A DNA stretch of 64,000 nucleotides from Arthrobacter sp. MAHUQ-56 (GTDB lineage Bacteria > Actinomycetota > Actinomycetes > Actinomycetales > Micrococcaceae), in assembly GCF_019710585.1 (NCBI RefSeq), contig NZ_JAIFZQ010000016.1, positions 62,001 through 126,000 on the forward strand. The letters are read 5' to 3'. This document shows, in pieces, positions 37,773 through 51,473 of the stretch. Within the stretch, counting starts at the first letter, position 1. Every line of letters begins with the position of its first letter. The position numbers were made by a program, and so were the translations under genes. The notes beneath the pieces are model-generated. The model had not been told where the DNA came from. It made no database searches and saw only the letters and a program-made list of their open reading frames with translations.

Positions 37773-38723
37773 TTATGATGCATCCTGCGCATTGGCGCGA
37801 ATCGGCGAATATTTGCTGCGCAGCATTTCCTGCAGCATTTCCTTCAGCACCAGCAGGACCGCGGAGCCCGCCTCGGACAACGGCTCGTGGTCAGGAGTGC
37901 AGAGGGCGATCTTGCACTGCAGCGCGGGGTCGGTGATTCGCAGGACCCGGAAGTCCTCTTCATGGAAGAGGGCATCCGCGGCCGACTTGGGCAGGATGGT
38001 GGCCCCGAGATCCGTGCGCAGCAACCGCGTAAGGGATGGCACGGATTCCACCTCGCCCACCAGCTTGAGCTTCATGCCCTTGCCTTCGATGCCGGCCTGC
38101 ACCACCTGGCGCAGCGTGTGGATCTGTTCCGGCAGGAAGAGGCCCACGGTGGCGACTTCTTCCAGAGTGATGGTTTCCGCATCAGCAGCGACCGGCAGTT
38201 CACGCCGGGAGTTCACGATCAGGTACAGGTCCTCCACGATCAGCGTGGTGAACTGCACCCCGCGGATAGGGCCTGGCTCGTAGATAAGCGCCATGTCGAG
38301 GCGCCCATTCTTGATGGCCTCGCTGAGAACGCCCCCGTAAATCTCAGTCACATGGAGGACGATGTCCGGGTAGCGCCTGCCCACTTCGCTGATGATCTGC
38401 GGGGTCAGGCTGGAGGCCATGCTGTAGGGGGCGATGGCGATCGATACGCGGCCGGACGGGGCTGCGCCGGAGGCTGCCACGTCCAACCGGGCCTGCTCCA
38501 CCAGCCGAAGGATGGACTGGGCATGCCTGTACAGGGTGTGTCCCGCTGCAGTTGGCTTCACGCCCTGCTTGCTGCGTATCAGCAGCCGCTGCTTCAGCTC
38601 CGATTCCAGGGCGGAAACCTGCTGGCTCAGGGCTGGCTGGGCAACATGCAGCGCCGAAGCGGCTTTGGTGATGCTCCCTGAATCCACGATCTGCACAAAG
38701 TACGCAAGCTTCCGCGTATCCAT
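37773..38723 (-). CDS. LysR-family regulator, Nac-like
   Basis: 316 residues. The N-terminal HTH (GSITKAASALHVAQPALSQQ, residues about 16-35) is close to that of enterobacterial Nac, and the similarity continues through SALESELKQRLLIRSKQGV and the effector domain (GRVSIAIAPYSMASSLTP, ALIYEPGPIRGV, GEVESVPSLTRLL). Nac binds ATA-N9-TAT; three promoters around this gene carry exactly that spacing. It is divergent from the transporter operon, with one box about 40 bp from its own start, so it probably autoregulates and activates the three operons. Whether it senses a pathway compound or nitrogen state is unknown. Confidence 0.93.
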   Translation of the reverse strand: MDTRKLAYFVQIVDSGSITKAASALHVAQPALSQQVSALESELKQRLLIRSKQGVKPTAAGHTLYRHAQSILRLVEQARLDVAASGAAPSGRVSIAIAPYSMASSLTPQIISEVGRRYPDIVLHVTEIYGGVLSEAIKNGRLDMALIYEPGPIRGVQFTTLIVEDLYLIVNSRRELPVAADAETITLEEVATVGLFLPEQIHTLRQVVQAGIEGKGMKLKLVGEVESVPSLTRLLRTDLGATILPKSAADALFHEEDFRVLRITDPALQCKIALCTPDHEPLSEAGSAVLLVLKEMLQEMLRSKYSPIRANAQDAS

Positions 38724-39036: not shown

Positions 39037-40119
39037 ATGCGAGCAACCATCAAAAGGAAAATGGCGGCTGTGGCCGCGCTTTCCGCAGCAATGTTGGCAA
39101 TGTCCGGCTGCGGGGGAAGCAGCGACGCGGCCAAGGCCGGCAGCGCCACATCCGGGGAAGTAAACCTGATTGCCTACTCCGGCGTATGGCAGGACCAGTA
39201 CAACGCGGCAGTGATCGAACCCTTCAAGGCCAAGTACCCGGACATCAAGATCAACTACGCCTCCAAGCGTTCATCCGCCGAAATGCTCAGTGCCCTCCAG
39301 GGCCAGAAGAACAGCCCGACCACGGACGTCGCCATCATGGACAACTCAGTCTCCACAACTGGCAACAAGCAGGGATTGTTCGAAAAGGTCACACCCGACG
39401 CCATCCCGAACCTCGCCAACGTGCCTGAAAAGTTCCGTGACAAGGACGGATACGGTCCCGTGGCCATGCTCGATGCCGTCGGCCTGGTCTATGACACCGC
39501 CACCTTCCCCAAGGCCCCGGACAGCTGGAACGTCCTGTGGGACCCTGCGTATGCAGGAAAAATCAATGTCAACGCCCCGCCCTCGCTCCTGGGCCTGTCC
39601 CTGACGGCGATCACATCCAAGATGCAGGGTGAGGATTACACGAAGGGCATTGACGGCGCTGTTGCCCGCCTTAAGGAGCTCGCCCCCAGTGTCCAGACCT
39701 TCGCGCCCAACCCGGACGAGTACCAGAACGTCATAACGGGACAGACGGTGCTGGGACTGGGCCAGAACGCCCGGGGCCAGTTCTACAGCGACCAAAGCAA
39801 CAAGAAAATGGGCGTCACCTTCCCCAAGGAAGGCACGGTCTACCAGATCAACACCGTGAACCTGGTCAAGGACGCCCCGCACTCAGCCGCGGCCACGACC
39901 TTCATCAACTACGCGCTGTCCGCCGAAGCCCAGACGGCTTTCGCCAAGGCTCTCTTTTACGCCCCGTCCGTGACGAACGCGCACCTGCCTGCCGATGTCA
40001 AAGCACGCGTGGTGCCCACCGACGGTTCCCTGAACATCGTCCCCCTCGACGTTGATTTCCTCTCCTCGGCCCGCGACAAGTGGACCGACACCTGGAAGCG
40101 CCAGATCATCACCAAGTAG
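39037..40119 (+). CDS. Pot-type ABC transporter substrate-binding lipoprotein
   Basis: 360 residues. Charged start MRATIKRKMAAVAALSAAM, lipobox MSGC followed by GGSSDAA, so it is a lipoprotein. The mature domain is of the PotD/AfuA type (VNLIAYSGVWQDQYNAAVIE; GYGPVAMLDAVGLVYDTATF; NTVNLVKDAPHSAAATTFINYAL), the class serving polyamines, opines, 2-aminoethylphosphonate and related amines or amino acids. The ribosome site AGGAAAGAG lies before ATG 39037. ATPase and two permeases follow in order. The ligand is probably the substrate of the LysR-linked lactamase and aminotransferase genes. Confidence 0.92.
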   Translation: MRATIKRKMAAVAALSAAMLAMSGCGGSSDAAKAGSATSGEVNLIAYSGVWQDQYNAAVIEPFKAKYPDIKINYASKRSSAEMLSALQGQKNSPTTDVAIMDNSVSTTGNKQGLFEKVTPDAIPNLANVPEKFRDKDGYGPVAMLDAVGLVYDTATFPKAPDSWNVLWDPAYAGKINVNAPPSLLGLSLTAITSKMQGEDYTKGIDGAVARLKELAPSVQTFAPNPDEYQNVITGQTVLGLGQNARGQFYSDQSNKKMGVTFPKEGTVYQINTVNLVKDAPHSAAATTFINYALSAEAQTAFAKALFYAPSVTNAHLPADVKARVVPTDGSLNIVPLDVDFLSSARDKWTDTWKRQIITK

Positions 40120-40166
40120 CGCCCCGGCGCCCCTCCCCACCTTCCCCCTTCAGGAGAACTGAACCC

Positions 40167-41294
40167 GTGACTGAATCAAAACTGTCGATCGTAGATCTGA
40201 CCAAACGATACGCAGCAGGTCTGGAACCCGCCGTCGACCGCCTGAACATGGAAGTGGAGGAGGGGCACCTGGTGGCGCTCCTCGGCCCATCCGGCTGTGG
40301 CAAGACCACCACCCTCCGTATGGTGGCCGGCCTGATGGACCCCACAGCCGGTTCCATCGTGGTGGACGGCAAGGAAATCACCCACACCCCCGTCAACAAA
40401 CGGGGCATGGGCATGGTCTTCCAGTCCTATGCGCTGTTTCCGCACATGAATGTCGAGCAGAACGTTGCCTTCGGCCTGGAGATGCGCCAGGTCCCCAAGG
40501 CCCAGCAAAAGGCGCGTGTCGCCGCAGCCCTGGACATGGTCCAGTTGGGCCACCTCGGCAAGCGGCAAACCAAGGAACTCTCCGGCGGCCAGCAGCAACG
40601 CATTGCACTGGCCCGCGCCCTGGTGGTGGAACCCACCCTGCTCTTGCTGGACGAACCGTTGTCCAACCTTGATGCCAAGCTTCGCGAAACCATGCGAACC
40701 GAGATCCGGTCCATCCAGCAGCGCACCAGGGCCACCACTCTTTTCGTTACCCACGACCAGGATGAGGCCTTGGACATGGCCGACAGGATCGCAGTGATGA
40801 ACGGCGGGCTGATCGAACAGTTCGGCTCGCCCACGGAGGTGTACGAACGGCCCCGTACCCACTTCGTGGCCAATTTCATCGGCCAGGCCAATTTCCTGGA
40901 CGCACGTGTCGGCGCCGAAACCGGGCGGGCCAACCTGGCCGGTGAGAGCTATTACCGCGTGGAGGTAGAGGGCCTTGGCCAGTTCGGTGCGGTCGGTTCG
41001 GCCGGGCTGGCCGGTACCACCCACGAACTGGTTATCCGCCCCCACCGTCTCGGCGTCTCCCTCGCCCCCGGACCGGGGCCGGCTCCGCTCGCAGGAACCA
41101 TTGAACGCGTCAGCTACACGGGTGATGCGCTGGCCGTTGCAGTACGGGTGGGCGAAAAACTGCTGCAGGCCCAAATGCCCACCATCAGCGGAGACCTGCC
41201 ACGGGTCGGAGATGCCGCGTACCTGTCATGGGCGCCGGAAGACGCATATTTGCTTCCGGCTCCGGGTGCCGTCGCGGAACGGCTTGCGGCATGA
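40167..41294 (+). CDS. Pot-type ABC transporter ATPase
   Basis: 375 residues from GTG 40167 (AGGAG upstream). Walker A is GPSGCGKTTT, the Q-loop is FQSYALFPH, the signature is LSGGQQQRIALARAL, Walker B is LLLLDEPLSNLD and the H-loop is VTHDQDEAL. A C-terminal TOBE domain (IRPHRLGVSLAPG, ERVSYTGDAL) is typical of the Pot/Fbp/Ugp class. It drives import through the two permeases whose genes follow. The longer upstream frame overlaps the binding-protein gene and is rejected. Confidence 0.95.
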   Translation: MTESKLSIVDLTKRYAAGLEPAVDRLNMEVEEGHLVALLGPSGCGKTTTLRMVAGLMDPTAGSIVVDGKEITHTPVNKRGMGMVFQSYALFPHMNVEQNVAFGLEMRQVPKAQQKARVAAALDMVQLGHLGKRQTKELSGGQQQRIALARALVVEPTLLLLDEPLSNLDAKLRETMRTEIRSIQQRTRATTLFVTHDQDEALDMADRIAVMNGGLIEQFGSPTEVYERPRTHFVANFIGQANFLDARVGAETGRANLAGESYYRVEVEGLGQFGAVGSAGLAGTTHELVIRPHRLGVSLAPGPGPAPLAGTIERVSYTGDALAVAVRVGEKLLQAQMPTISGDLPRVGDAAYLSWAPEDAYLLPAPGAVAERLAA

Positions 41295-42211
41295 CCCTCC
41301 TTGAAGCTCCGGCCGCCCCTGAAAGGCCCCGTGCCAAAAACGAAGGGCAGCTCGAGAGAGCCACCGAACGGCGCAACCGCCGCACCTACCTTGCGCTCCT
41401 GCTTCCGGGCCTGCTCGGCCTGCTGGTCAGTTTCGTTTTCCCGCTGGCCTACATGGTCCGGATGTCCTTCAACCAGGGAAGCCCGGACGGCGTCATCGTT
41501 GAGACGTTCACCCTGGATACGTACATCCAACCGCTGACGGACCCCTACTACTGGAAGGTCACCCTGGACACGTTCCAGATGGGTGTCACCGTTGGTGTCC
41601 TGTGCGTCCTCGTGTCCTACCCGGTGGCCTTGTTTCTGGCCCGCAGCACCAGCAAGTACCGGGGCCTCCTCATCGCCATTGCCATCGCGCCACTGCTCAC
41701 CTCGGCAGTGGTCCGTACCTACGGCTGGATGGTGATCCTGGGAACCAATGGGCTCGTGAACTCCTCGCTCACCGGGCTGGGCCTGATCGATACCCCGCTA
41801 AAGCTCACCAACAATATGGCTGGCGTGACCATAGGCCTGGTGGAGATCTTCATGCCCTACGCCATCCTGGCCATGATCTCCGGGTTCGGCCGGCTCAGCC
41901 CCCAGCTGGAGGAAGCGGCCGGTTCCCTGGGCGCCAGCAAATTCAAGGTGTTCACCCGGGTTACGCTTCCGCTCTGCCTGCCGGGCCTGCTGACCGCGTT
42001 CCTGCTGGTCTTCGTCCTGTCCATCAGCACGTTCATCACGCCCCGCCTCCTGGGCGGCGGCAGCGTGCAGGTCCTGGCCACGGAGATCTACGATCAAACC
42101 ACCGGCCTGCTCAACTGGCCCTTCGCCGCCGCTCTGTCCGTCATCCTGCTGGTGCTTTTCGGCCTGATCATCGCCGTCTACCAGCGCCTCACCAGAAAGA
42201 TCGGAGGGTGA
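41291..42211 (+). CDS. Pot-type ABC permease (PotB-like)
   Basis: 306 residues with a polar N-terminal stretch of about 40 residues, then six membrane segments. EAA loop in LEEAAGSLGASKFKVFTRVT followed by LPLCLPG. ATG 41291 overlaps the ATPase stop (ATGA). It pairs with the next gene to form the channel. Confidence 0.93.
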   Translation: MTLLEAPAAPERPRAKNEGQLERATERRNRRTYLALLLPGLLGLLVSFVFPLAYMVRMSFNQGSPDGVIVETFTLDTYIQPLTDPYYWKVTLDTFQMGVTVGVLCVLVSYPVALFLARSTSKYRGLLIAIAIAPLLTSAVVRTYGWMVILGTNGLVNSSLTGLGLIDTPLKLTNNMAGVTIGLVEIFMPYAILAMISGFGRLSPQLEEAAGSLGASKFKVFTRVTLPLCLPGLLTAFLLVFVLSISTFITPRLLGGGSVQVLATEIYDQTTGLLNWPFAAALSVILLVLFGLIIAVYQRLTRKIGG

Positions 42212-42213
42212 CC

Positions 42214-43029
42214 ATGAGCGAGGCAAAGGTATTCAAACCGCGCTTCAACCCCGCCAAACCAGCATTCGGGCTCCTGGTGTTCCTGCTGTACCTGTTCCTG
42301 CTGGCACCGCTGCTGATTGTGTTCGTGGTGTCGTTCGCCGCCAACCAGTACCTGTCCTTCCCGCCGGAAGGGTTCACCCTGAAGTGGTATGGGATGCTGC
42401 CGCAGGAGGGCACATTCATGGAGGGCATGAAGGTCAGCCTGATCGTTGCCGTCATCGTCACGCTGATCGTCCTGGCGCTCGGAGTGCCTGCGGCCCTGGC
42501 TCTGGACCGGTTCGAGTTCAAGGCCAAGGCCGCGGTCCAGTCGTTCTTCCTGTCGCCCCTGCTGATCCCCAGCATCGTCCTGGCTTTGGGCATGGTGCTG
42601 CTCTTCGGCCCATTGAAGCTGACCAACACCTATGCCGGGATAGTCATCGGACACGTGGCCATCACCATCCCGTTCGTCATCCGGACCACCCTGATGAGCC
42701 TGGCCACCACGGATACGTCCTGCGAAGCAGCCGCCCGGATCCTGGGCGCCGGGTCGTGGACAGTATTCCGGCGTGTGACCCTGCCCATCATCCAACCCGG
42801 CGTGATCGCCGGTGGAGTCATTGCCTTCATCGTCTCCTTCGACGAAGCCGTGATCTCGCTGTTCGTGGCCGAATCCGGCCTGCCGACCCTGCCTGTGCAG
42901 GTGCTGCGTTACGTGGAAAACTCGGCGGATGCGGCGGTGGCCGCCCTGTCCGTGATCCTTATCCTGATCTCGCTGGCCGTGGTGGTGGTGGTGGAACGCG
43001 TCATGGGGCTGCGCAAAGCGCTCCGCTGA
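42214..43029 (+). CDS. Pot-type ABC permease (PotC-like)
   Basis: 271 residues, six membrane segments, with PPEGFTLKWYGMLPQ after the first segment as in PotC, and the EAA loop in SCEAAARILGAGSWTVFRRV followed by TLPIIQPG. The start is two bases after the PotB-like stop, with GGAGGG before it. A strong hairpin ends the operon. Confidence 0.93.
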   Translation: MSEAKVFKPRFNPAKPAFGLLVFLLYLFLLAPLLIVFVVSFAANQYLSFPPEGFTLKWYGMLPQEGTFMEGMKVSLIVAVIVTLIVLALGVPAALALDRFEFKAKAAVQSFFLSPLLIPSIVLALGMVLLFGPLKLTNTYAGIVIGHVAITIPFVIRTTLMSLATTDTSCEAAARILGAGSWTVFRRVTLPIIQPGVIAGGVIAFIVSFDEAVISLFVAESGLPTLPVQVLRYVENSADAAVAALSVILILISLAVVVVVERVMGLRKALR

Positions 43030-43314: not shown

Positions 43315-44103
43315 ATGGGACCCATGGTCGATCTCGTGGCAGATCTCGGAGAAGGCTTCGGCGCCTACTCGATGGGCGACGACGCGGCCCTGCTCGAAGT
43401 GGTGTCCAGCGCCAACATCGCCTGCGGCTTCCATGCCGGAGATCCGGACATTATGAACGCCACCGTTGCTGAATGTGTACGCCGCGGCGTCAGCATCGGG
43501 GCCCACCCCAGCTTCCCGGACCTGCGGGGCTTTGGCCGCCGGGCCATGGACCTTACCGCAGACGAAGTCCGTCACGACCTCCTTTACCAGTTCGGTGCCC
43601 TGAGCGCTTTCGCTGCCTACCACGGCGCCGGCGTCGTCCACCTTGCACCGCACGGCCGCCTCGGCAATCTCGTTGCCACCCGGCCGGACTACGCCGGGGC
43701 CGTGGCCGACGCCGCCGCCCGCATCAATCCGGACCTCATCGTCCTGGCCCAGGACGGCGAACTCGCCGACGCTGCCGCAGCCCGACACCTCCCCGTCGGC
43801 ATTGTGGGGATCGCGGACCGCGCCTACCAGGCTGACGGCACCCTGGTGCCGCGCAGCCAGCCGGGCGCCGTCATCCACGATCCCTCAGTCATCGTGGAAC
43901 GCACCATCCGTATGGTCTGCGAAGGCGTCATTGAAACAGTCGCCGGAACAGACCTTCCCATCGCTGCCGACACCATCCTGCTCCACGGTGACACCCCGGG
44001 TGCCGTCCAGCTGGCCCGCCGGGTCCGTGCGGAACTGGAACGCGCCGGCGTCACCATTGCCCCGCTCGGCCAGGTCCTGGCCGCCAAAGCGAAAGCCGCC
44101 TGA
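43315..44103 (+). CDS. pxpA: PxpA-like (LamB/YcsF) subunit with altered motifs
   Basis: 262 residues. LamB/YcsF landmarks are clear: DLGEGFG, NIACGFHAGDPDIM (about residues 34-47), GAHPSFPDLRGFGRR and the final LHGDTPGAVQLARRVR. In PxpA this family has DLNxDLGEG and HVKPHGxLYN; here they read DLVADLGEG (Val8 for Asn) and HLAPHGRLGN (Ala111 for Lys, Gly117 for Tyr). In E. coli, PxpABC opens 5-oxoproline to glutamate with ATP. The changes suggest a related but different lactam or amide substrate. ATG 43315 follows GGAGG; ATG 43324 is the alternative. Confidence 0.88.
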   Translation: MGPMVDLVADLGEGFGAYSMGDDAALLEVVSSANIACGFHAGDPDIMNATVAECVRRGVSIGAHPSFPDLRGFGRRAMDLTADEVRHDLLYQFGALSAFAAYHGAGVVHLAPHGRLGNLVATRPDYAGAVADAAARINPDLIVLAQDGELADAAAARHLPVGIVGIADRAYQADGTLVPRSQPGAVIHDPSVIVERTIRMVCEGVIETVAGTDLPIAADTILLHGDTPGAVQLARRVRAELERAGVTIAPLGQVLAAKAKAA

Positions 44104-44104
44104 C

Positions 44105-44836
44105 ATGACCGCCCATCCAACCGCAGCGCAGCCTCCCGTGGAGGTGTTCGAATCCGGCGACGCAGCCCTGCGGGTCGTCGCTTCCTCCCCGGACAGGGAG
44201 GCCAACTGGGCCACCGTCCACGCCCTCGCCGCATGGCTGGACAATGCCGGTGCCGACGGCGTCCACGGGGCGGTGCCCACCTACGATTCGCTGCTGGTCG
44301 AGTTCGACCCCGCCGTCACCTCGGCGCGCCAGGTGCGGGCTTTCGTCCTCCTGGGCCTGCGCCAGCTCGAATTTGCAGGCGTCCCCGCCCGGGCCCCCCG
44401 CGAATTCCTGGTCCCCGTGGTTTACGGCGGCGAGTACGGCCCGGACCTGGAGCGCGTTGCCGAACAGCAGCAGCTCTCCGTTGATGAAGTCATCCAGCTT
44501 CACACCACCAAGGCCTACGTCATTCGCTGCCTGGGCGCCCCGGCCGGCTCGCCCATGATGGACGGCCCGGATTTCCCGTTCCCGGTGCCCCGCTTGAAGG
44601 ACCCCCGCCTGTCGGTGCCTGCCGGTGCCGTGTCAGTGGCCGGACGGCAGGCAGTCATTGCTCCGGCCATGGCACCCGGTGGCTGGTGCGTCATCGGCCA
44701 GACCCCGCTGACCGTGCTCGACGCCGGCAGCGAACCGCTGGTTCCCTACGTCCCCGGCGACGCACTGCGGTTCCTCCAGATCCATCCCGAAGACTTCGCA
44801 CAGTACGAAGGCCGCAAGCTGGAGGCAATTCGATGA
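44105..44836 (+). CDS. pxpB: PxpB-like (KipI/AHS1) subunit
   Basis: 243 residues, allophanate-hydrolase-subunit-1 domain: VPTYDSLLVEFDP in the first half, FLVPVVYGGEYGPDLERVAE in the middle, and SVPAGAVSVAGRQAVIAPAM then PGGWCVIGQTPL near the end. The segment that is usually GFxPGFxYL reads here GAPAGSPMM, so a normally constant loop has changed. It should form the ATP-dependent complex with the pxpC-like product. Start ATG 44105 is one base after the pxpA-like stop; its 3' end overlaps pxpC by 4 bp. Confidence 0.88.
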   Translation: MTAHPTAAQPPVEVFESGDAALRVVASSPDREANWATVHALAAWLDNAGADGVHGAVPTYDSLLVEFDPAVTSARQVRAFVLLGLRQLEFAGVPARAPREFLVPVVYGGEYGPDLERVAEQQQLSVDEVIQLHTTKAYVIRCLGAPAGSPMMDGPDFPFPVPRLKDPRLSVPAGAVSVAGRQAVIAPAMAPGGWCVIGQTPLTVLDAGSEPLVPYVPGDALRFLQIHPEDFAQYEGRKLEAIR

Positions 44837-45840
44837 GCCTGGTGATCCAGCAGCCAGGCAACTCCGTGGTCACGGACCTGGGGCGCTTTCGCGGACCCCG
44901 GTTCGGCCTGCCGGTCAACGGAGCCCTGGACCAGTTTTCAGCCCGCGCCGCCAACATCCTGGCCGGCAATGGTGACGATGCCCCGCTGCTGGAAGTCACC
45001 GCACTGGACTTCCGCATGCGGGCCACCACGGACCTCCTCATCGCCGTCACCGGCGCACCGCTGCGCCTCACCGTGGGCGGGCGCGAGTGCCAGCAGTGGG
45101 AGCCGGTATCCGTGCAGGCGGGTGAAACCATAGCGCTGCGCCGCATGCACGGCGGCCTCCGGGCCTATATCGCCGTCCACGGCTCAGTCGACGCCCCGGT
45201 ACTCCTGGGCAGCTGCGCGCCGGACACCGTCGTCGGATTCGGACTCCGGCTCGCCGAAGGTACCGAACTGAAGACCTCCCGCTCTGTCCCGCCCATCCGC
45301 CAGCCGTACTTCGACCTCCCGCTTTTCCGACTGGGCCTCACCCGGCCGGAATTCCACAGCACCGCAGTGGTGGAGGTGACGGATGGGCCCGATGTGGAGG
45401 AATTCGGCGACACCGCCGAACTGCTCTACAACACCGAGTACACGGTCAGTGGCCGGAGCAACCACATCGGGCTGCGGCTGGGCGGGGCACTTCCGGAACG
45501 CCAGTCCACTGCGGAGGTGCTGTCCCGGGGCGTCCCGGTAGGCGCCGTGGAGGTTCCCTCCCGGGAAGAGCTCCTGGTGCTGCACCGTGGCCGCGGCGTC
45601 ACCGCCGGCTACCCCGTCCTGGCAGTGGTCACCAGCCGCTCCCTGGACGTGCTGGCCCAGGCCCGGCCGGGCCACAAAATCACCTTCCGCAGAACCTCTG
45701 TCACCGAAGCAACAGCGAAACACCGGGCGGCGCTAAGGGAACTGGAAACACTGCGCTCCAAAGTCGGCACAGTGTTCTCACTCCTGGGCATCGGGAACCA
45801 GCCGGGCCGGCACCAGCCCTTGCCGGCCGCCGGAACCTAG
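44833..45840 (+). CDS. pxpC: PxpC-like (KipA/AHS2) subunit
   Basis: 335 residues, AHS2 domain: GRFRGPRFGLPVNGALDQFS, AANILAGN, LIAVTGAPLRLTVGG, and AYIAVHGSVDAPVLLGS. Usual AHS2 sequences carry SDRMGYRL and GQPIVLL.D.QTTGGYP; here they read SNHIGLRL and EELLVLHRGRGVTAGYP, again changes at normally constant places. With PxpA- and PxpB-like partners it should form a lactam- or amide-opening enzyme. The ATG at 44833 overlaps the pxpB-like TGA. The MHS porter gene follows after 55 bp. Confidence 0.88.
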   Translation: MSLVIQQPGNSVVTDLGRFRGPRFGLPVNGALDQFSARAANILAGNGDDAPLLEVTALDFRMRATTDLLIAVTGAPLRLTVGGRECQQWEPVSVQAGETIALRRMHGGLRAYIAVHGSVDAPVLLGSCAPDTVVGFGLRLAEGTELKTSRSVPPIRQPYFDLPLFRLGLTRPEFHSTAVVEVTDGPDVEEFGDTAELLYNTEYTVSGRSNHIGLRLGGALPERQSTAEVLSRGVPVGAVEVPSREELLVLHRGRGVTAGYPVLAVVTSRSLDVLAQARPGHKITFRRTSVTEATAKHRAALRELETLRSKVGTVFSLLGIGNQPGRHQPLPAAGT

Positions 45841-45895: not shown

Positions 45896-47236
45896 ATGTC
45901 CACCTCTACGCATGCGGCCCAGCCGCACCAAGAGCGGCTCAGCAGCAAGCAGACCCGCAAGGTTGTCACGGCCGGCTGCGTCGGCATCTTCGTGGAACTC
46001 TATGACAACGGCATCTTCGCCTTCATGGCCGGAACGCTTGCCCTCGTCTTCCTCGCCCCCGGGAACCCGGACAACGCCCTGCTGTTCGTCTTCGCCGGCT
46101 ATGCCGTTTCCTTCTTCGTGCGCCCCCTCGGCGCCGTCGTCTGCGGATACCTGGGCGACCGGATCGGGCGGCAAAAGCTGCTGGTCTTTGTCATCCTCCT
46201 GATCAGTGTGGCCACGGCCGGTATCGGCCTGCTGCCTCCTTATGCGGCGATCGGCATTGCGGCGCCCATCCTGCTGGTGCTGCTCCGCCTGCTGCAGGGC
46301 TTCTCCGTGGGCGGCGAAGCTGCCGGCGCCATGACGTTCCTCGCCGAACACGCACCCGAAGGCAAGCGCGGCATCATCACCTCCTACGCCCAGATCGCCT
46401 CCTTCGCGGCACTGCTCACCGGCACCCTGGTTGCCTACTCCATGTCCCCGTGGCTCACCCAGGCAGCGATCGAAGGCGGCGGCTTCGGAGCGTTCGCATG
46501 GCGCATTCCGTTCCTGGTCGCCATTCCCATGGGCATCATCGGCTGGTACATCCGCAAGGCCATCAGCGACACCCCCAACTTTGAAAAGCTGAAGGAAGAA
46601 GGCGGGCTGTCCAAGAACCCGCTGAAGGAAGCGTTCGCCTCGGCCGAGCACCGCCACGCCATGCTCCTGGCACTCTTCATCCCGCTGATGAACGGCTCCG
46701 GCTACTACGTCCTGTTCTCCTATATGCCCACCTTCCTGAAGGGCAAGCAGCTCAACTTCACCATCGGTGAGGCCCTGCTGGTCACCGCCTGCAGCCTGGT
46801 GGTCATCTGCATCGCCATCCCGTTCATGGGCGCCCTTTCCGACCGTGTGGGCCGCAAGAAGGTCATTTCCGGCGCCGCCATCGCCATGGCCGTCCTGGGC
46901 ATCCCGTCCTACGCACTCATCGCCACCGGCAACATGGGCCTGGCTATCCTCGGCGCATCCATCATGGCCGTCGTCTTCGCCGGCCACACCGCGGTCATCC
47001 ACATCCTGATTGTTGAGCTGTTTCCCACCCGCGTCCGCTATTCGGCCTACGGCCTGGGCTACAACATCTCCTCGGCACTGTTCGGCGGCACGGCTCCGCT
47101 GCTGATGACCTGGCTGATTGCGGAGACCAGCAACATCTACATGCCCGCCTTCTATGCAGTCATCACCGCGCTGGGCACCCTTGCCGCCGTCAGCACGGTC
47201 AAGGACCGGGCTCACCAGCCGCTCCGCGACGCCTGA
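45896..47236 (+). CDS. MHS-family MFS transporter
   Basis: 446 residues, 12 membrane segments. Family blocks: TAGCVGIFVELYDNGIFAFM, GYLGDRIGRQKLL, RLLQGFSVGGEAAGAMTFLA, LSDRVGRKKVISGA and VELFPTRVRYSAYGLGYN. Proton symport of an organic acid is the family role. AAGGAAAG precedes the ATG. It could import the ketogluconate or idonate used by the next genes, or serve the pxp-like genes 55 bp upstream; order favours the former. Confidence 0.88.
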   Translation: MSTSTHAAQPHQERLSSKQTRKVVTAGCVGIFVELYDNGIFAFMAGTLALVFLAPGNPDNALLFVFAGYAVSFFVRPLGAVVCGYLGDRIGRQKLLVFVILLISVATAGIGLLPPYAAIGIAAPILLVLLRLLQGFSVGGEAAGAMTFLAEHAPEGKRGIITSYAQIASFAALLTGTLVAYSMSPWLTQAAIEGGGFGAFAWRIPFLVAIPMGIIGWYIRKAISDTPNFEKLKEEGGLSKNPLKEAFASAEHRHAMLLALFIPLMNGSGYYVLFSYMPTFLKGKQLNFTIGEALLVTACSLVVICIAIPFMGALSDRVGRKKVISGAAIAMAVLGIPSYALIATGNMGLAILGASIMAVVFAGHTAVIHILIVELFPTRVRYSAYGLGYNISSALFGGTAPLLMTWLIAETSNIYMPAFYAVITALGTLAAVSTVKDRAHQPLRDA

Positions 47237-47296: not shown

Positions 47297-48055
47297 ATGA
47301 CTTTTTCCGACTACACCACAGCCCTCGTCACCGGAGCCTCCACCGGCATGGGCGCCGCCATCGCCGAACGCCTCAGCAAAAGGGGCCTGACCGTCCATGC
47401 CGTGGCCCGCAACGCCGACCGCCTCGCCGAACTCGCGGACCGCACGGGAGCAGTCCCGCATGTGGTGGACCTGACCGACACCGCCGCGCTGGCCGACGTC
47501 GTGCGTGACCTCAGGGTGGACGTCCTGGTCAACTGCGCCGGCGTCTCCCGGCCGGGCAACATCCTGGACTCCTCCGAGCAGGACATCGACGAACTGGTGG
47601 ACGTGAACCTCCGCGGCCTGCTACAGCTCACCCGCCTGGTGCTGCCGGGCATGGTGGAGCGGGACCTTGGCCACATCGTCAACATCAGCTCCATCGCCGG
47701 CCTGTACAACTTCTACGGCCACACGGTCTACCACGCCACCAAGGCTGCCGTGCACCAGATCTCCCGGCAGCTCCGGAACGACACCGTGGGCAAGCGCATC
47801 CGCGTCACCGAAATCTGCCCCGGCCGGGTGGAGACCGAGATCTTCGGCCGGAACATGGGCGGCAGCCCCGAGGCCATGGAAGAAGCCTGGAAGACGTACT
47901 ACGAGGGCTACGAGTCGCTGACCACGGATGACATCGTCAACGGTCTCGATTACGCCATCGAGACCCCGCGCCACGTAAATGTTGGCATGCTTGAGCTCAT
48001 GCCCACGTTCCAGGTGCCCGGCGGCCTGACCTTCGACCGTCGGGCTGAAGACTGA
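47297..48055 (+). CDS. SDR oxidoreductase, YdfG-like
   Basis: 252 residues. TGASTGMG cofactor motif, NCAGVS, catalytic Ser in NISSIAGLYN and YHATKAA with Tyr and Lys. The C-terminal part (VGMLELMPTFQVPGGLTFDRR) resembles E. coli YdfG, an NADP-dependent 3-hydroxy-acid (serine, 3-hydroxypropionate) dehydrogenase with broad range. AGGAGA precedes the ATG. Its role among ketoaldonate genes is not obvious; it may reduce or oxidise another sugar acid in the route. Confidence 0.85.
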   Translation: MTFSDYTTALVTGASTGMGAAIAERLSKRGLTVHAVARNADRLAELADRTGAVPHVVDLTDTAALADVVRDLRVDVLVNCAGVSRPGNILDSSEQDIDELVDVNLRGLLQLTRLVLPGMVERDLGHIVNISSIAGLYNFYGHTVYHATKAAVHQISRQLRNDTVGKRIRVTEICPGRVETEIFGRNMGGSPEAMEEAWKTYYEGYESLTTDDIVNGLDYAIETPRHVNVGMLELMPTFQVPGGLTFDRRAED

Positions 48056-48119: not shown

Positions 48120-49088
48120 ATGCAGCTAGTACAAACCGTCAGTTTCCCCGAACCCCAGCTCCTTGCCAGCCTCTCCCCGCTTCCCGAGGGACTGCACGGC
48201 GTGGTGTGGGACATGCAGGGGGCGCCGGACGAGACCCACGGAAGCATCGACGGCGTCATCCTGCCCTACATCAATGCCGGGGCCGTGCTGGGGAACCTGG
48301 GCAAGGTCCCGGACCTCAAGTTCGTCCAGACCCAGTCAACAGGGTACGACGGCGTACGCGAGGCGGCCGGGCCGGCCGCCGCAGTGGCAAACGCCTCGGG
48401 CGTCCACGCAGCCGCCACCGCGGAGCTGGCCGTGGGCCTCATCCTGGCCAAACTGCGAGGCATCGACCAGGCGGTCCGTGACCAGCAGACCGAAAACTGG
48501 GCACCGCAGCGACGCCAGTCGCTGGCCGACCGGCGCGTCCTGCTGCTGGGCGTCGGCGGCATCGGGCAGGAACTGGCCCGCAGGCTGGAGCCCTTCGAAG
48601 TCGGCATCACCCGCGTGGGCAGCACCGCCCGCACCGACGAACACGGCCACGTGCACTCCTCGGCGGACCTGGAAGCCCTGGCCCGGGACCACGACATCCT
48701 GGTTTCCGTCCTGCCGCTGAACACTGGCACCGAGCACCTGGTCAACGCGCAGGTCCTTGCCGCCCTGCCCGACGGCGCCCTGGTGGTCAACGTGGGACGC
48801 GGCCCCGTGATCGACACCGAGGCGCTCACGGCGGAGGTTGTCTCCGGCCGGCTCCACTGCGCCTTGGACGTGGTGGACCCCGAACCGCTGCCCAAGGGAC
48901 ATCCGCTGTGGTCCACGGACAATGCCTTGATCACCCCGCACGTGGGCGGCAACGCCTCCGCGTTCGAACCACGGATCCTCAAACTGCTGAAGCGCCAGCT
49001 CGAAGCCCTCGCCGCCGGCGAAACCCCGGCGAACCTTGTCCAGGAGGGCCCGTTCCAGCAGGGCCCATTCCAGGGGCCGTCCGCATGA
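48120..49088 (+). CDS. D-2-hydroxyacid dehydrogenase, 2-ketoaldonate reductase candidate
   Basis: 322 residues of the D-isomer 2-hydroxyacid dehydrogenase family. Nucleotide fold GVGGIGQELARRLEPF (about residues 142-157), then SVLPLNTGTEHLV, VVNVGRGPVIDTEAL, the catalytic Asp/Glu region LHCALDVVDPEPLP and His in TPHVGGNAS. Relatives such as GhrB reduce 2-keto-L-gulonate to L-idonate and 2,5-diketogluconate to 5-ketogluconate. The downstream IdnO and IdnD genes make this role likely. The C-terminus ends in a repeated GPFQ encoded by a 15-bp repeat. The stop overlaps the IdnO-type start. Confidence 0.87.
   Translation: MQLVQTVSFPEPQLLASLSPLPEGLHGVVWDMQGAPDETHGSIDGVILPYINAGAVLGNLGKVPDLKFVQTQSTGYDGVREAAGPAAAVANASGVHAAATAELAVGLILAKLRGIDQAVRDQQTENWAPQRRQSLADRRVLLLGVGGIGQELARRLEPFEVGITRVGSTARTDEHGHVHSSADLEALARDHDILVSVLPLNTGTEHLVNAQVLAALPDGALVVNVGRGPVIDTEALTAEVVSGRLHCALDVVDPEPLPKGHPLWSTDNALITPHVGGNASAFEPRILKLLKRQLEALAAGETPANLVQEGPFQQGPFQGPSA
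49041..49070. repeat. 15-bp tandem repeat at a gene 3' end
   Basis: Two units (49041-49055 and 49056-49070) differing at two positions, plus a degenerate third, encode the final QEGPFQQGPFQG of the hydroxyacid dehydrogenase. Confidence 0.8.
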
Positions 49089-49855
49089 GCGCGCTGTTCG
49101 ACCTGACCGGCCGCGTCGCCCTCGTCACCGGTTCCAGCCGCGGCATCGGCTCCTCCCTGGCACTGGCCCTGGCCGACGCCGGTGCCACCGTGGTGCTCAA
49201 TGGTGTCAACCCGGAGCGGCTCAAGGAAGCCGAAACGGCGCTTGCAGCCGACTTCCCGCCCGGACGCATCGCCAGCGTCGCCTTCGACGTCACCGACGGC
49301 GATGCCGCCGCCCGCAGCATCTCCTGGATCGAGGAGAACGTCGGTCCGCTGGACATCCTGGTCAACAACGCCGGCATCCAGCACCGGGTTCCCATGCTGG
49401 ACCTGGACGTGGCCGACTGGGAGCGGGTGATTTCCACCGACCTCACCAGCGCATTCCTGGTGGGCCGGGAAGCCGCCCGGCACATGATTCCACGCGGCCG
49501 CGGCAAGATCATCAACATCTGCTCTGTCCAGACGGACCTGGCCCGGCCCACCATCGCCCCGTACGTTGCGGCCAAGGGCGGGCTTCGCAACCTCACCCGC
49601 GCCATGACGGCCGAGTGGGCTGCCTCCGGCCTGCAGATCAACGGCATCGCGCCTGGGTACATCCATACCGAGATGACCCAGAACCTGGTGGATGACGAGC
49701 AGTTCAATTCCTGGATCCTGGGCCGCACCCCGGCCAACCGCTGGGGCACCCCGCAGGACCTGGCCGGCCCGGTGGTGTGGCTGGCCTCCAGCGGTTCCGA
49801 CTTCGTGAACGGCCAGACGATCTTTATCGACGGCGGAATGACGGTGGTGGTCTGA
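49085..49855 (+). CDS. idnO: Gluconate 5-dehydrogenase (5-ketogluconate reductase)
   Basis: 256-residue classical SDR. VTGSSRGIGSSLALALADAG, NNAGIQHRVPMLDL, catalytic Ser in NICSVQTDLARPTIAPYVAAKGG with Tyr and Lys, and the C-terminal GQTIFIDGGMTVVV. The RRG-free HR context and IQHR motif match IdnO/gluconate 5-dehydrogenases, which reduce 5-keto-D-gluconate to D-gluconate with NADPH. Its start and stop overlap the neighbours (4 bp before, ATG of IdnD shared with its TGA). Confidence 0.88.
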   Translation: MSALFDLTGRVALVTGSSRGIGSSLALALADAGATVVLNGVNPERLKEAETALAADFPPGRIASVAFDVTDGDAAARSISWIEENVGPLDILVNNAGIQHRVPMLDLDVADWERVISTDLTSAFLVGREAARHMIPRGRGKIINICSVQTDLARPTIAPYVAAKGGLRNLTRAMTAEWAASGLQINGIAPGYIHTEMTQNLVDDEQFNSWILGRTPANRWGTPQDLAGPVVWLASSGSDFVNGQTIFIDGGMTVVV

Positions 49856-50928
49856 TGTCCATGGATTCTGAATCCCTTCCCGCTTCGGGCCCGGCGCTGG
49901 TGGCGCACGCCGCCGGTGACCTTCGTATCGATGACATCCCGCTGGCCCGGCCTGCCGCCGATGAGGCGGTGGTGGAGGTGAGCTACGGCGGGATCTGTGG
50001 CTCCGACCTGCATTACTGGCTGCACGGCGCGGCGGGGGAGTCCATCCTGAAGGCGCCGCTGGTCCTCGGCCATGAAATTTCGGGGGTCGTGGTGCGCCCT
50101 GCAGCCGGTGGTGCAGGCCCGCAGGCCGGGACCGCGGTCGCCGTCCATCCCGCCACTCCGGGCCCCGGCGCGGCGAAATACCCTGCGGACCGGCCCAACC
50201 TCTCGCCGGGCTGCACTTACCTGGGCAGCGCGGCCCGCTACCCGCACACGGACGGGGCGTTCAGCCGCTACGTGAACCTGCCCGTGCGGATGCTCCGGCC
50301 ACTGCCGGACAGCATCGACCTGCGCACCGCCGCCCTGATCGAACCCGCCTCCGTGGCGTGGCATGCAGTGTCCCGGGCCGGCGACATCAAGGGCAAATCC
50401 GCCCTGGTGATTGGCTCGGGACCCATCGGTGCGCTGGCCGTCGCCGTGCTCAAGCGCGGCGGTGCTGCCAGGATCACCGCGGTGGACCTGCACGCCAAAC
50501 CGCTGGAAATCGCTGCGGCCGTTGGCGCCGACCAGGTGATTAATGCCGCTGACACGGCAGCGATCGAGGCTGTCGAGGCCGACGTCGTGATCGAATCCTC
50601 CGGAAACCACCACGGCCTGGCCTCCGCCGTCCGCGGCGCCGTCCGCGGCGGCACTGTGGTCATGGTCGGCCTGCTCCCCACGGGGATGCAGCCCGTGCCC
50701 ATCTCGCTGGCCATCACCCGCGAACTCGAGCTCAAGGGCTCGTTCCGTTTCAACGATGAGATCGACGACGTGATCGCCGCGCTCGCCGACGGGTCCCTGG
50801 ACATTGAGCCCGTTATCACGCACGAATTTCCGCTGGCCGACGCCCTGCATGCGTTCGAAGTGGCCAAGGACTCCACCACGTCGGGCAAGGTCCTGCTCAG
50901 CTTTGACGGTGAAGGGCCGGACCAGTGA
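49855..50928 (+). CDS. idnD: L-idonate 5-dehydrogenase without structural-zinc cysteines
   Basis: 357 residues of the medium-chain alcohol dehydrogenase family. Catalytic zinc site: GGICGSDLHYWLHG and LGHEISG; nucleotide fold VIGSGPIGALAVAVLKRGG; C-terminal GSFRFNDEIDDVI as in IdnD. In E. coli IdnD the structural zinc lobe has a cluster of cysteines (CGHCKYC...C); here that region reads PATPGPGAAKYPADRPNLSPGC, with only one Cys left. The catalytic function should remain: oxidation of L-idonate to 5-keto-D-gluconate. ATG 49855 overlaps the IdnO stop; ATG 49861 is the alternative. Confidence 0.86.
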   Translation: MSMDSESLPASGPALVAHAAGDLRIDDIPLARPAADEAVVEVSYGGICGSDLHYWLHGAAGESILKAPLVLGHEISGVVVRPAAGGAGPQAGTAVAVHPATPGPGAAKYPADRPNLSPGCTYLGSAARYPHTDGAFSRYVNLPVRMLRPLPDSIDLRTAALIEPASVAWHAVSRAGDIKGKSALVIGSGPIGALAVAVLKRGGAARITAVDLHAKPLEIAAAVGADQVINAADTAAIEAVEADVVIESSGNHHGLASAVRGAVRGGTVVMVGLLPTGMQPVPISLAITRELELKGSFRFNDEIDDVIAALADGSLDIEPVITHEFPLADALHAFEVAKDSTTSGKVLLSFDGEGPDQ

Positions 50929-51473
50929 GCGGGCGGATGCCCCCGCTGGTGGTCATGGGTGTTTCGGGGTGCGGCAAATCCACGGTGGGCGCCCTCCTGG
51001 CCGAGCGGCTGGGCGTGCCCTTCCTGGACGGTGACGATTTCCACCCGGCGGCCAACAAGGAGAAGATGGCCGCGGACGTCCCGCTCACCGACGACGACCG
51101 GGCGCCCTGGCTCGCCCGGATCGGCCAGCTCCTTGCTGGAGATGTCGACGGCGGCACGACAGTTCCGCCGGTCGTCGCCTGTTCGGCGCTCAAGCGCAGC
51201 TACCGGGACCTCCTGCGCAGCAGCGCCCCGGAGGTGGTGTTCATCCACCTCAGCGGCAGCGCTGCCACGATCGGCTCCCGGATGGACGCCAGGGCCCACG
51301 AGTTCATGCCGCGCACCCTGCTTGAGTCCCAGCTCGCCACGCTCGAGGGGCTGGGACCGGACGAAGCGCACGTGCTGGCCGACATCTCGCTGGAACCCGG
51401 CACGCTCGTCGAGACGGTCGTCCAGGCGCTTGAGGTGCGCGCGGGAGCTGTCCGCAATCCTGCGGCGCTGTAG
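50925..51473 (+). CDS. gntK: Gluconokinase
   Basis: 182 residues, GntK type: Walker A MGVSGCGKST near residues 11-20, then FLDGDDFHPAANKEKMAADV PLTDDDR (split here for length), PWLARI, ACSALKRSYRDLLR and FMPRTLLESQLATLE. It phosphorylates D-gluconate to 6-phosphogluconate, feeding the pentose phosphate or Entner-Doudoroff routes. The GTG at 50925 overlaps the IdnD stop (GTGA). It is the last gene of the cluster and makes the pathway from idonate complete. Confidence 0.93.
   Translation: MSGRMPPLVVMGVSGCGKSTVGALLAERLGVPFLDGDDFHPAANKEKMAADVPLTDDDRAPWLARIGQLLAGDVDGGTTVPPVVACSALKRSYRDLLRSSAPEVVFIHLSGSAATIGSRMDARAHEFMPRTLLESQLATLEGLGPDEAHVLADISLEPGTLVETVVQALEVRAGAVRNPAAL

Follow-up and report, generated by a model that had tools for sequence, protein, structure and literature searches.

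A divergent PxpABC-family complex and its conserved gene neighbourhood in Arthrobacter sp. MAHUQ-56

A PxpABC-family complex with replaced hallmark residues

Does a complex that has lost hallmark residues of 5-oxoprolinase still act on 5-oxoproline, or does it open another ring? This question is raised by three adjacent genes in a 64,000-nucleotide stretch of the Arthrobacter sp. MAHUQ-56 genome (contig NZ_JAIFZQ010000016.1, positions 62,001 to 126,000; the whole stretch is called the window below). The genes lie on the + strand and encode homologues of PxpA (43315-44103; 262 aa, LamB/YcsF fold), PxpB (44105-44836; 243 aa, CT_C_D domain) and PxpC (44833-45840; 335 aa, CT_A_B domain), which the genome annotation labels 5-oxoprolinase subunits. 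In 5-oxoprolinase, PxpB and PxpC use ATP to act on 5-oxoproline, whose ring is opened by PxpA, according to the accessible text of PMC13274462 and PMC8453981. Judged from its sequence and gene context, of which the gene context is the strongest evidence, the window complex is probably an ATP-dependent cyclic-amide opener of the PxpABC family that handles a different ring, probably larger and less charged than 5-oxoproline.

The genes pxpA and pxpB are separated by 1 base, pxpB and pxpC overlap by 4 bases, and all three frames are open. Reading frames and sequence bore out the place and the motifs that a first-pass annotation of the window had given for them. All three products are clear family members (PxpA, PF03746, 294 bits; PxpB, PF02682, 164.5 bits; PxpC, PF02626, 212.7 bits) and form a set of three adjacent subunits with LamB_YcsF, CT_C_D and CT_A_B domains. 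PxpA passed the NCBIfam subfamily models NF003814 (319.4 against 226 bits) and NF003816 (225.5 against 213 bits) and missed three equivalog models. PxpB scored 119.3 bits with the equivalog TIGR00370 (cut-off 145.55) and PxpC 140.3 bits with the 5-oxoprolinase equivalog NF045499 (cut-off 500). Since these two cut-offs were not reached and hallmark residues are replaced, we regard the complex, on its sequence, as a divergent PxpABC-family complex and advise against listing it as a 5-oxoprolinase. The low scores make it less probable that the complex is a 5-oxoprolinase, not that it works like one. An AlphaFold model of the window PxpA (six-row alignment input; mean predicted local distance difference test score 85.1, poor around residues 11-20) matched solved LamB/YcsF proteins best among structures in the PDB (2dfa, 1v6t, 2xu2 and 1xw8; TM-score to query 0.78-0.85), and the fold is thus predicted to be retained. 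The first-pass annotation had called the folds of all three subunits otherwise intact, which holds for PxpA, the one subunit covered by modelling.

Compared with the conserved states of a wide alignment, the window PxpA carries N8V, A54C, K111A, Y117G, E164V, F166I and C222L, so that all six of the canonical residues N8, K111, Y117, E164, F166 and C222 are replaced; the changes at A54, E164, F166 and C222 add to those listed in the first pass. In PxpB, F142C, F145A, P147A, F149S, Y151M, Y186A and L214P were found, the GFxPGFxYL region reading GAPAGSPMM, and in PxpC Q14T, G20R, G118S, R211H, Q240E, P247L, D253G, G258A and I263L. The PxpC motif had been compared with SDRMG. Most rows read S(N/D)R-x-G, and the informative change there is R to H (R211H). 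In the PxpA model, residues 8, 164 and 222 lie within strands, 111 and 166 just past a strand and 117 in a helix, which suggests that the altered residues are at the open face of the barrel, near the strand ends.

The altered states are fixed among relatives. One pattern scan of named genomes for loci encoding a PxpC relative gave 51 orthologous loci (the window clade), many of them cut by contig ends, from Arthrobacter, Streptomyces, Saccharopolyspora and others. V8, A111 and G117 were present in the PxpA of all 51, and residue 222 was L in 41 and Q in 10. The altered PxpB and PxpC motifs were kept in the rows viewed, with variants in Streptomyces, Amycolatopsis and Saccharopolyspora (e.g. 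GGPAASAM for GAPAGSPM). Among 65 comparison PxpA rows, N8, A54, K111 and E164 were 100% conserved and Y117, F166 and C222 94-98%; with the fixed states above, the altered motifs are not a product of chance. This comparison set was picked by having K111 (one gene, L001 = L096, entered twice), and K111 itself is therefore tested by the linkage comparison below instead.

The locus samples, numbered with L, came from similarity searches and plasmid records and are non-random, with some doubled or closely related rows. The tallies of linkage, selection and residue columns omit L002, L005, L009 and L010 (window copies), L004 and L008 (copies of L001) and sub-length rows, and the residue-column comparison additionally omits L003 and L095. 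The same gene was fetched twice in the pairs L001/L096, L012/L098, L015/L092 and L018/L097, and row counts are therefore not species counts. Gene calls in unannotated loci were made by homology only, and presence or absence was set by score thresholds.

A gene cluster shared with Proteobacteria

The most constant partner of pxpABC was an aspartate-type aminotransferase gene (PRK06107; 35380-36588, + strand; 710.8 bits against a cut-off of 617), found in 46 of the 51 loci. Its product retains the FRIS Arg motif, which we take to bind the alpha-carboxylate. A short-chain dehydrogenase gene (SDR1; 47297-48055, + strand; best match YdfG, below cut-off) was present in 38 loci, and either the aminotransferase or SDR1 in 50, the exception being a 3.2 kb contig. 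A gene for a NAC-like LysR regulator (37773-38723, - strand; 309.3 against 309 bits) lies on the strand opposite pxpABC, as in most of the 51 loci.

This core of aminotransferase, LysR-type regulator, PxpABC and SDR1 recurs in Alpha-, Beta- and Gammaproteobacteria, and SDR1 is the cross-phylum partner of the altered PxpA. Plasmid-borne core loci were found in Bradyrhizobium, Microvirga, Sinorhizobium, Paracoccus, Rahnella, Burkholderia, Shinella and one record filed as Roseateles, with the regulator mostly named NAC. The 11 linked proteobacterial loci also include unannotated stretches of Variovorax, Rhizobium lusitanum and S. fredii NGR234. The Rahnella locus held the core only, within 22.7 kb, while the Shinella locus (L153) adds a CHA-aldolase homologue, a hydroxyacid dehydrogenase, an L-idonate 5-dehydrogenase, a second short-chain dehydrogenase (SDR2) and a gluconokinase, and so has every enzyme type of the window. 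Identity to the window proteins in seven linked loci was 54-62% for SDR1 and 45-65% for the aminotransferase where it was read, 27-37% for PxpB and 28-32% for PxpC. The RraA-family protein was 61-63% identical in Paracoccus and Shinella and 30-34% in Microvirga and Burkholderia. Like the window clade, the linked proteobacterial clusters are annotated as 5-oxoprolinase loci and have the core partners. They differ from it in mostly having biotin carboxylase and biotin carboxyl carrier protein genes of their own (biotin carboxylase in 9 of 11), in PxpB and PxpC that group with those of E. coli, and often in an amino-acid-type ATP-binding cassette (ABC) transporter. The plasmid filed as Roseateles, a betaproteobacterium (L157, NZ_CP084753.1, marked 'unverified organism'), has a cluster 89-95% like that of Shinella in the aminotransferase (95%), the hydroxyacid dehydrogenase and the idonate dehydrogenase, and its organism name may be wrong.

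Linkage to this core and the state of PxpA go together. Among loci outside the window clade of at least 6 kb, K111 was lost in 11 of 11 that carry the aminotransferase or SDR1 and kept in 17 of 19 that carry neither, with L093 and L094 as the exceptions (Fisher p 1.4e-6, a test that treats loci as independent and ignores shared descent). Eight of the 11 linked loci came from a search by SDR1 similarity, before anything had been seen of their PxpA; these eight were chosen from 25 listed matches, partly since other Pxp matches were known in the same records. In all 11, PxpA has lost K111, Y117, E164, F166 and C222, as in the window clade. Of 62 conserved PxpA columns, seven are changed in the window clade and seven in the linked proteobacterial rows, and these five are changed in both (hypergeometric p 6e-5, with columns treated as exchangeable). 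N8, A54 and the PxpC positions altered in the clade stay canonical in the linked proteobacteria. The window fits a grouping of aminotransferase/SDR1-linked Pxp clusters with five-residue loss, a grouping defined in this same analysis and hence not independent of it. At the five common positions the new residues are for the most part smaller or uncharged, which suggests a roomier, less charged pocket.

The PxpB and PxpC of the two groups differ in descent. A tree of the joined PxpABC sequences with the motif columns blanked, like the other trees covering seven linked proteobacterial loci, placed the window clade with L093/L094 (100/100) and the linked proteobacteria with E. coli (100/99). PxpB and PxpC rejected a single clade of all K111-lacking complexes (approximately unbiased (AU) test, p 0.0023), again placing the proteobacterial set with E. 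coli (100/100). Two lineages of PxpABC thus occur in a single type of gene cluster, and the PxpA changes would be either convergent or derived from a specialised PxpA that swapped partners. L093 (9063-11640) and L094 (9322-11951) form a sister PxpABC group with V8, A111 and G117, and lie beside a gene for a major facilitator superfamily (MFS) transporter.

Decay of the complex, or a chance copy beside a sugar-acid operon, is scarcely credible on these data. Genuine decay has an example in a relative on a Pseudonocardia plasmid (L128, NZ_CP052772.1, 14001-14654), a degraded clade-type PxpA gene that has lost its C-terminal motif and lies near transposase genes with no PxpBC match; it is one row in the clade tallies and was not counted as a working locus. 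The window frames are open, and dN/dS was 0.07-0.27 for PxpA, PxpB and PxpC against six relatives (simple Nei-Gojobori estimates), which indicates purifying selection. Thirty-five PxpA columns are at least 97% conserved and identical in both groups compared, the H and D motifs included. A family search found a PxpA match in 177 of 197 genomes, 11 of which, the window's own included, had a match of 70-100% identity, and all 11 list at least one further PxpA match. Because the motifs are fixed, dN/dS is low, these columns are conserved and a second PxpA accompanies the close orthologue in all 11 genomes, the first-pass statement that the changes are not decay stands, and the aminotransferase or SDR1 present in 50 of 51 loci and the core shared by three proteobacterial classes contradict decay as well. 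A protein search of 396 genomes of the phylum at E 1e-69 had a match in the window's own genome only; close orthologues are therefore rare in that sample and the subfamily is patchy. One genome (G186, contig C2) has two pxpABC sets of the clade type (L091 and L092), separated by about 14 kb, one of them in a Streptomyces-like neighbourhood with an M24 peptidase-like gene, seen in L091 only.

The complex could still be a 5-oxoprolinase, with changes that are neutral or kinetic and neighbours that use the glutamate released from 5-oxoproline. With the 5-oxoprolinases of E. coli, B. subtilis and C. glutamicum it shares the three subunits, their domain families and the catalytic-looking PxpA motifs, ATP-driven opening being assumed, and both the 35 shared PxpA columns with their H and D motifs and the score with NF003814 agree with this. 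It differs from them in the five PxpA residues, in F145 and Y186 of PxpB, in R211, D253 and G258 of PxpC and in its neighbourhood. The aligned B. subtilis KipI chain 2zp2 retains F145 and Y186, both replaced in the window. The replaced PxpA residues are 94-100% conserved in the canonical rows, the linked proteobacteria have replaced five of these too, PxpB and PxpC fall below their equivalog cut-offs, and the window genome also has a canonical PxpABC locus with a biotin carboxylase gene (L096; PxpA state NKYC). Taken together, a retained 5-oxoprolinase is unlikely. If the complex indeed opens another ring, the present label is wrong for a set of proteins seen in Actinomycetota and in three classes of Proteobacteria, and residues 111, 117, 164, 166 and 222 of PxpA (K, Y, E, F and C in 5-oxoprolinases) would separate such complexes from 5-oxoprolinases.

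Candidate reaction and pathway

From the gene set we infer a ring opening followed by steps in a set order. As in the rest of the family, PxpB and PxpC would use ATP to activate the ring, which PxpA would then hydrolyse. The freed amino acid would then be transaminated by the PRK06107-type aminotransferase, and its carbon skeleton would pass to the RraA-type aldolase/decarboxylase, the short-chain dehydrogenases and, where present, ketoaldonate/idonate-type dehydrogenases and a gluconokinase.

An amide-opening step ahead of the aminotransferase is consistent with plasmids of Agrobacterium fabrum and Rhizobium sp. BT03 (L148 and L149). Here the aminotransferase is 67% and 66% identical to that of the window, and it is followed by a NAC gene, by hydantoinase/oxoprolinase genes at the place of PxpABC, by a short-chain dehydrogenase gene and by an aldolase/citrate lyase family gene. 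In a scan that covered the Agrobacterium pair, the two proteins matched caprolactamase CapA with 530.9 bits and CapB with 235.8 bits, below cut-offs of 1000. ATP-dependent lactam hydrolases of this HyuAB/caprolactamase type have no sequence similarity to PxpABC in the accessible text of PMC8453981, and in NCBIfam and Pfam the three window Pxp proteins matched no HyuA or CapA family. Unlike the window, L148 and L149 have a different short-chain dehydrogenase, only 33-36% identical to SDR1, and the aldolase/citrate lyase gene instead of RraA. The equivalence of the two arrangements therefore rests on the aminotransferase, the regulator and the gene order. The replacement fits an ATP-dependent opening of an amide.

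The other enzyme genes of the cluster would supply the later steps. The RraA-family gene (CHA aldolase/oxaloacetate decarboxylase homologue, PRK09262; 36621-37316, + strand; 224.9 against 179 bits) was found in 40 of the 51 loci and encodes a D-x20-R-D stretch, which presumably marks active aldolases. Downstream of pxpC and SDR1 lie genes on the + strand for a 2-hydroxyacid dehydrogenase (48120-49088, named from family matches; a hydroxyacid dehydrogenase in 28 loci), for SDR2, a gluconate-5-dehydrogenase-like protein (49085-49855, below cut-offs; 26 loci), for a zinc alcohol dehydrogenase like L-idonate 5-dehydrogenase (49852-50928; 237.8 bits, below the cut-off of 469; 26 loci) and for a gluconokinase-like kinase (50925-51473; 10 loci). 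The names of these four and of SDR1 are those of the best matches, below cut-offs where they were scored. SDR2 is 50-54% identical to the SDR2 of L133, L147, L152 and L153, and the kinase 50% and 42% identical to the annotated gluconokinases of L153 and L151. Some of the linked proteobacterial clusters share the RraA, hydroxyacid dehydrogenase, idonate dehydrogenase, SDR2 and gluconokinase genes with the window. Two transporters complete the neighbourhood. An ABC transporter (binding protein, ATPase and two permeases; 39037-43029, + strand) is an optional insert between the regulator and pxpA, seen in 15 of the 51 loci in a count by eye, with permeases only in L090, and a metabolite/H+ symporter-type MFS transporter (45896-47236, + strand; 334.1 bits, below the cut-off of 443.45) follows pxpC.

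We tentatively place the two PxpABC lineages and the caprolactamase-like enzyme in one pathway, common to several phyla, for the breakdown of a ring compound that contains nitrogen and is related to sugar acids, a suggestion that must be called doubtful as a whole. It might run, for example, from a cyclic amide through an alpha-amino sugar acid, a 2-ketoaldonate, idonate and 5-ketogluconate to 6-phosphogluconate, with the altered PxpA residues as its signature against true 5-oxoprolinases. Such a pathway would have a defined enzyme set and a new nutrient in soil and the rhizosphere, and its complexes would offer a natural comparison for ring recognition by PxpABC. A diketopiperazine, a hydantoin, hydroxypyroglutamate and an iminosugar-lactam were considered as candidate substrates. 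No peptidase or carbamoylase gene was recurrent in the annotated loci, in which not every neighbour is annotated; the M24 peptidase-like gene was the single instance. Literature searches on the cluster, PxpABC variants, biotin links and cyclic-dipeptide enzymes found no description of it, most subscription papers being outside reach.

The same enzymes also match the route from 2-keto-L-gulonate through idonate given in the accessible text on fungal work (PMC5306355, PMC5814732), and a lactone such as ascorbate could be the substrate, with opening to 2-keto-L-gulonate followed by the hydroxyacid dehydrogenase, the idonate dehydrogenase-like enzyme, SDR2 and gluconokinase to 6-phosphogluconate. 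An aldo-keto reductase in the Streptomyces loci, with 2,5-diketogluconate reductases as best matches (below cut-off), points in this direction too; Amycolatopsis loci have such a reductase as well, and loci of both genera have extra short-chain dehydrogenases. A lactone would leave the aminotransferase, the most constant partner, without a role, and the caprolactamase-like replacement points to an amide; we consider it very improbable.

A further alternative concerns the mechanism, and its substrate could be the one proposed above for the cyclic-amide opener. PxpB and PxpC may be the carboxyltransferase of a biotin-dependent N-carboxylase, served in trans by an AccA3-type protein with biotin carboxylase and carrier domains, with PxpA hydrolysing the carboxylated ring. 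The biotin carboxylase genes of the linked proteobacteria suggest as much, and in the chain listing of PDB entry 9yx5, PxpB- and PxpC-like chains stand beside mycobacterial AccA3. The AccA3-like protein of L093 has a 79% identical homologue on another contig of the window genome. In L093 itself, the biotin carboxylase gene was rejected as a dedicated gene because of its close match to mycobacterial AccA3 (827 bits) and was treated as housekeeping. The accessible text of PMC11001197 concerns AccA3 and PII and does not touch this cluster. The window has no match to biotin carboxylase and lacks the dedicated gene of loci with AccC/BCCP-linked PxpBC; just one of the 51 clade loci has such a gene, about 9 kb from pxpC (L047), and the E. 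coli record has none beside pxpABC. An N-carboxylase is thus possible, if not the mechanism we favour. Urea carboxylase and urea amidolyase have subdomains that correspond to PxpB and PxpC, whereas in the window the subunits are separate, PxpA is their partner and no biotin carboxylase is fused to them.

Several observations weigh against a cyclic-amide opener for a new substrate and against the pathway drawn from it. The first-pass annotation had taken parallel change in all three subunits as selection for a new substrate. For PxpA this has support, as five of the canonical residues gone from the window clade are also gone from the proteobacterial complexes with this gene cluster. In PxpB, columns 142, 145 and 186 are changed in both groups and the overlap is not significant (p 0.19), and in PxpC no column is changed in both, the changes being confined to the actinobacterial clade, so that PxpC does not support the claim. 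Part of the parallel change may concern ATP use, since the linked proteobacterial loci mostly keep a biotin carboxylase of their own, and the PxpC changes (among them Q14, G118, R211, Q240, P247, D253 and G258) may reflect an altered activation step instead; against this, E. coli keeps the canonical PxpC residues although no biotin carboxylase gene adjoins its pxp genes. Taken by itself, PxpA does not reject either arrangement of the K111-lacking complexes (AU p 0.208 and 0.149) and is compatible with a single origin of the changes, which PxpB and PxpC reject. L093 and L094 lost K111 and have neither aminotransferase nor SDR1 at the cut-offs used, which would make them a possible third context, and of the 55 clade loci that reach 6 kb, 53 are linked, which by elimination leaves L091 and L128 as the two that are not. 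Only about half of the 51 loci, many of them truncated, showed the sugar-acid genes. S. meliloti GR4 (L152) has the RraA, hydroxyacid dehydrogenase, idonate dehydrogenase and SDR2 genes with an amino-acid-type ABC transporter and no PxpABC in the 18.7 kb listed, and the sugar-acid part can therefore stand alone. For these two reasons it may be a separate, often adjacent pathway.

Other PxpA-like genes

Beside the window copy and L096, the window genome has a third, solitary PxpA gene (G000:C8:186586-187299; L003, L095). Its frame is open and no PxpBC match was found in 19 kb. SGG stands in place of the HGD motif towards the C-terminus and GQA in place of the GES of DLGES, and from these motifs the protein may be inactive or altered in its catalysis. 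A contig filed under Sporosarcina beigongshangi (L071; 63% G+C) is 89% identical over 3.8 kb to the Micrococcaceae locus L014 and is probably contamination of that assembly.

PxpA-like genes without pxpBC in the stretch listed were seen in two further records. In CP049029.1 (L129, 6001-8848), K111 is kept with A at 117 and the neighbours are genes for the allantoinase PuuE, a ureidoglycolate lyase and a purine permease, a hint that YcsF proteins on their own may serve another function. In Phaeobacter (L135, NZ_CP021050.1, 6001-6765), K111 is kept with G at 117, beside genes for a tripartite ATP-independent periplasmic (TRAP) transporter and an intradiol dioxygenase. PxpA-like sequence was also present in two short Staphylococcus/Salmonella phage records (OR850151.1 and OR851095.1; H103 and H104), where it is likely host DNA.

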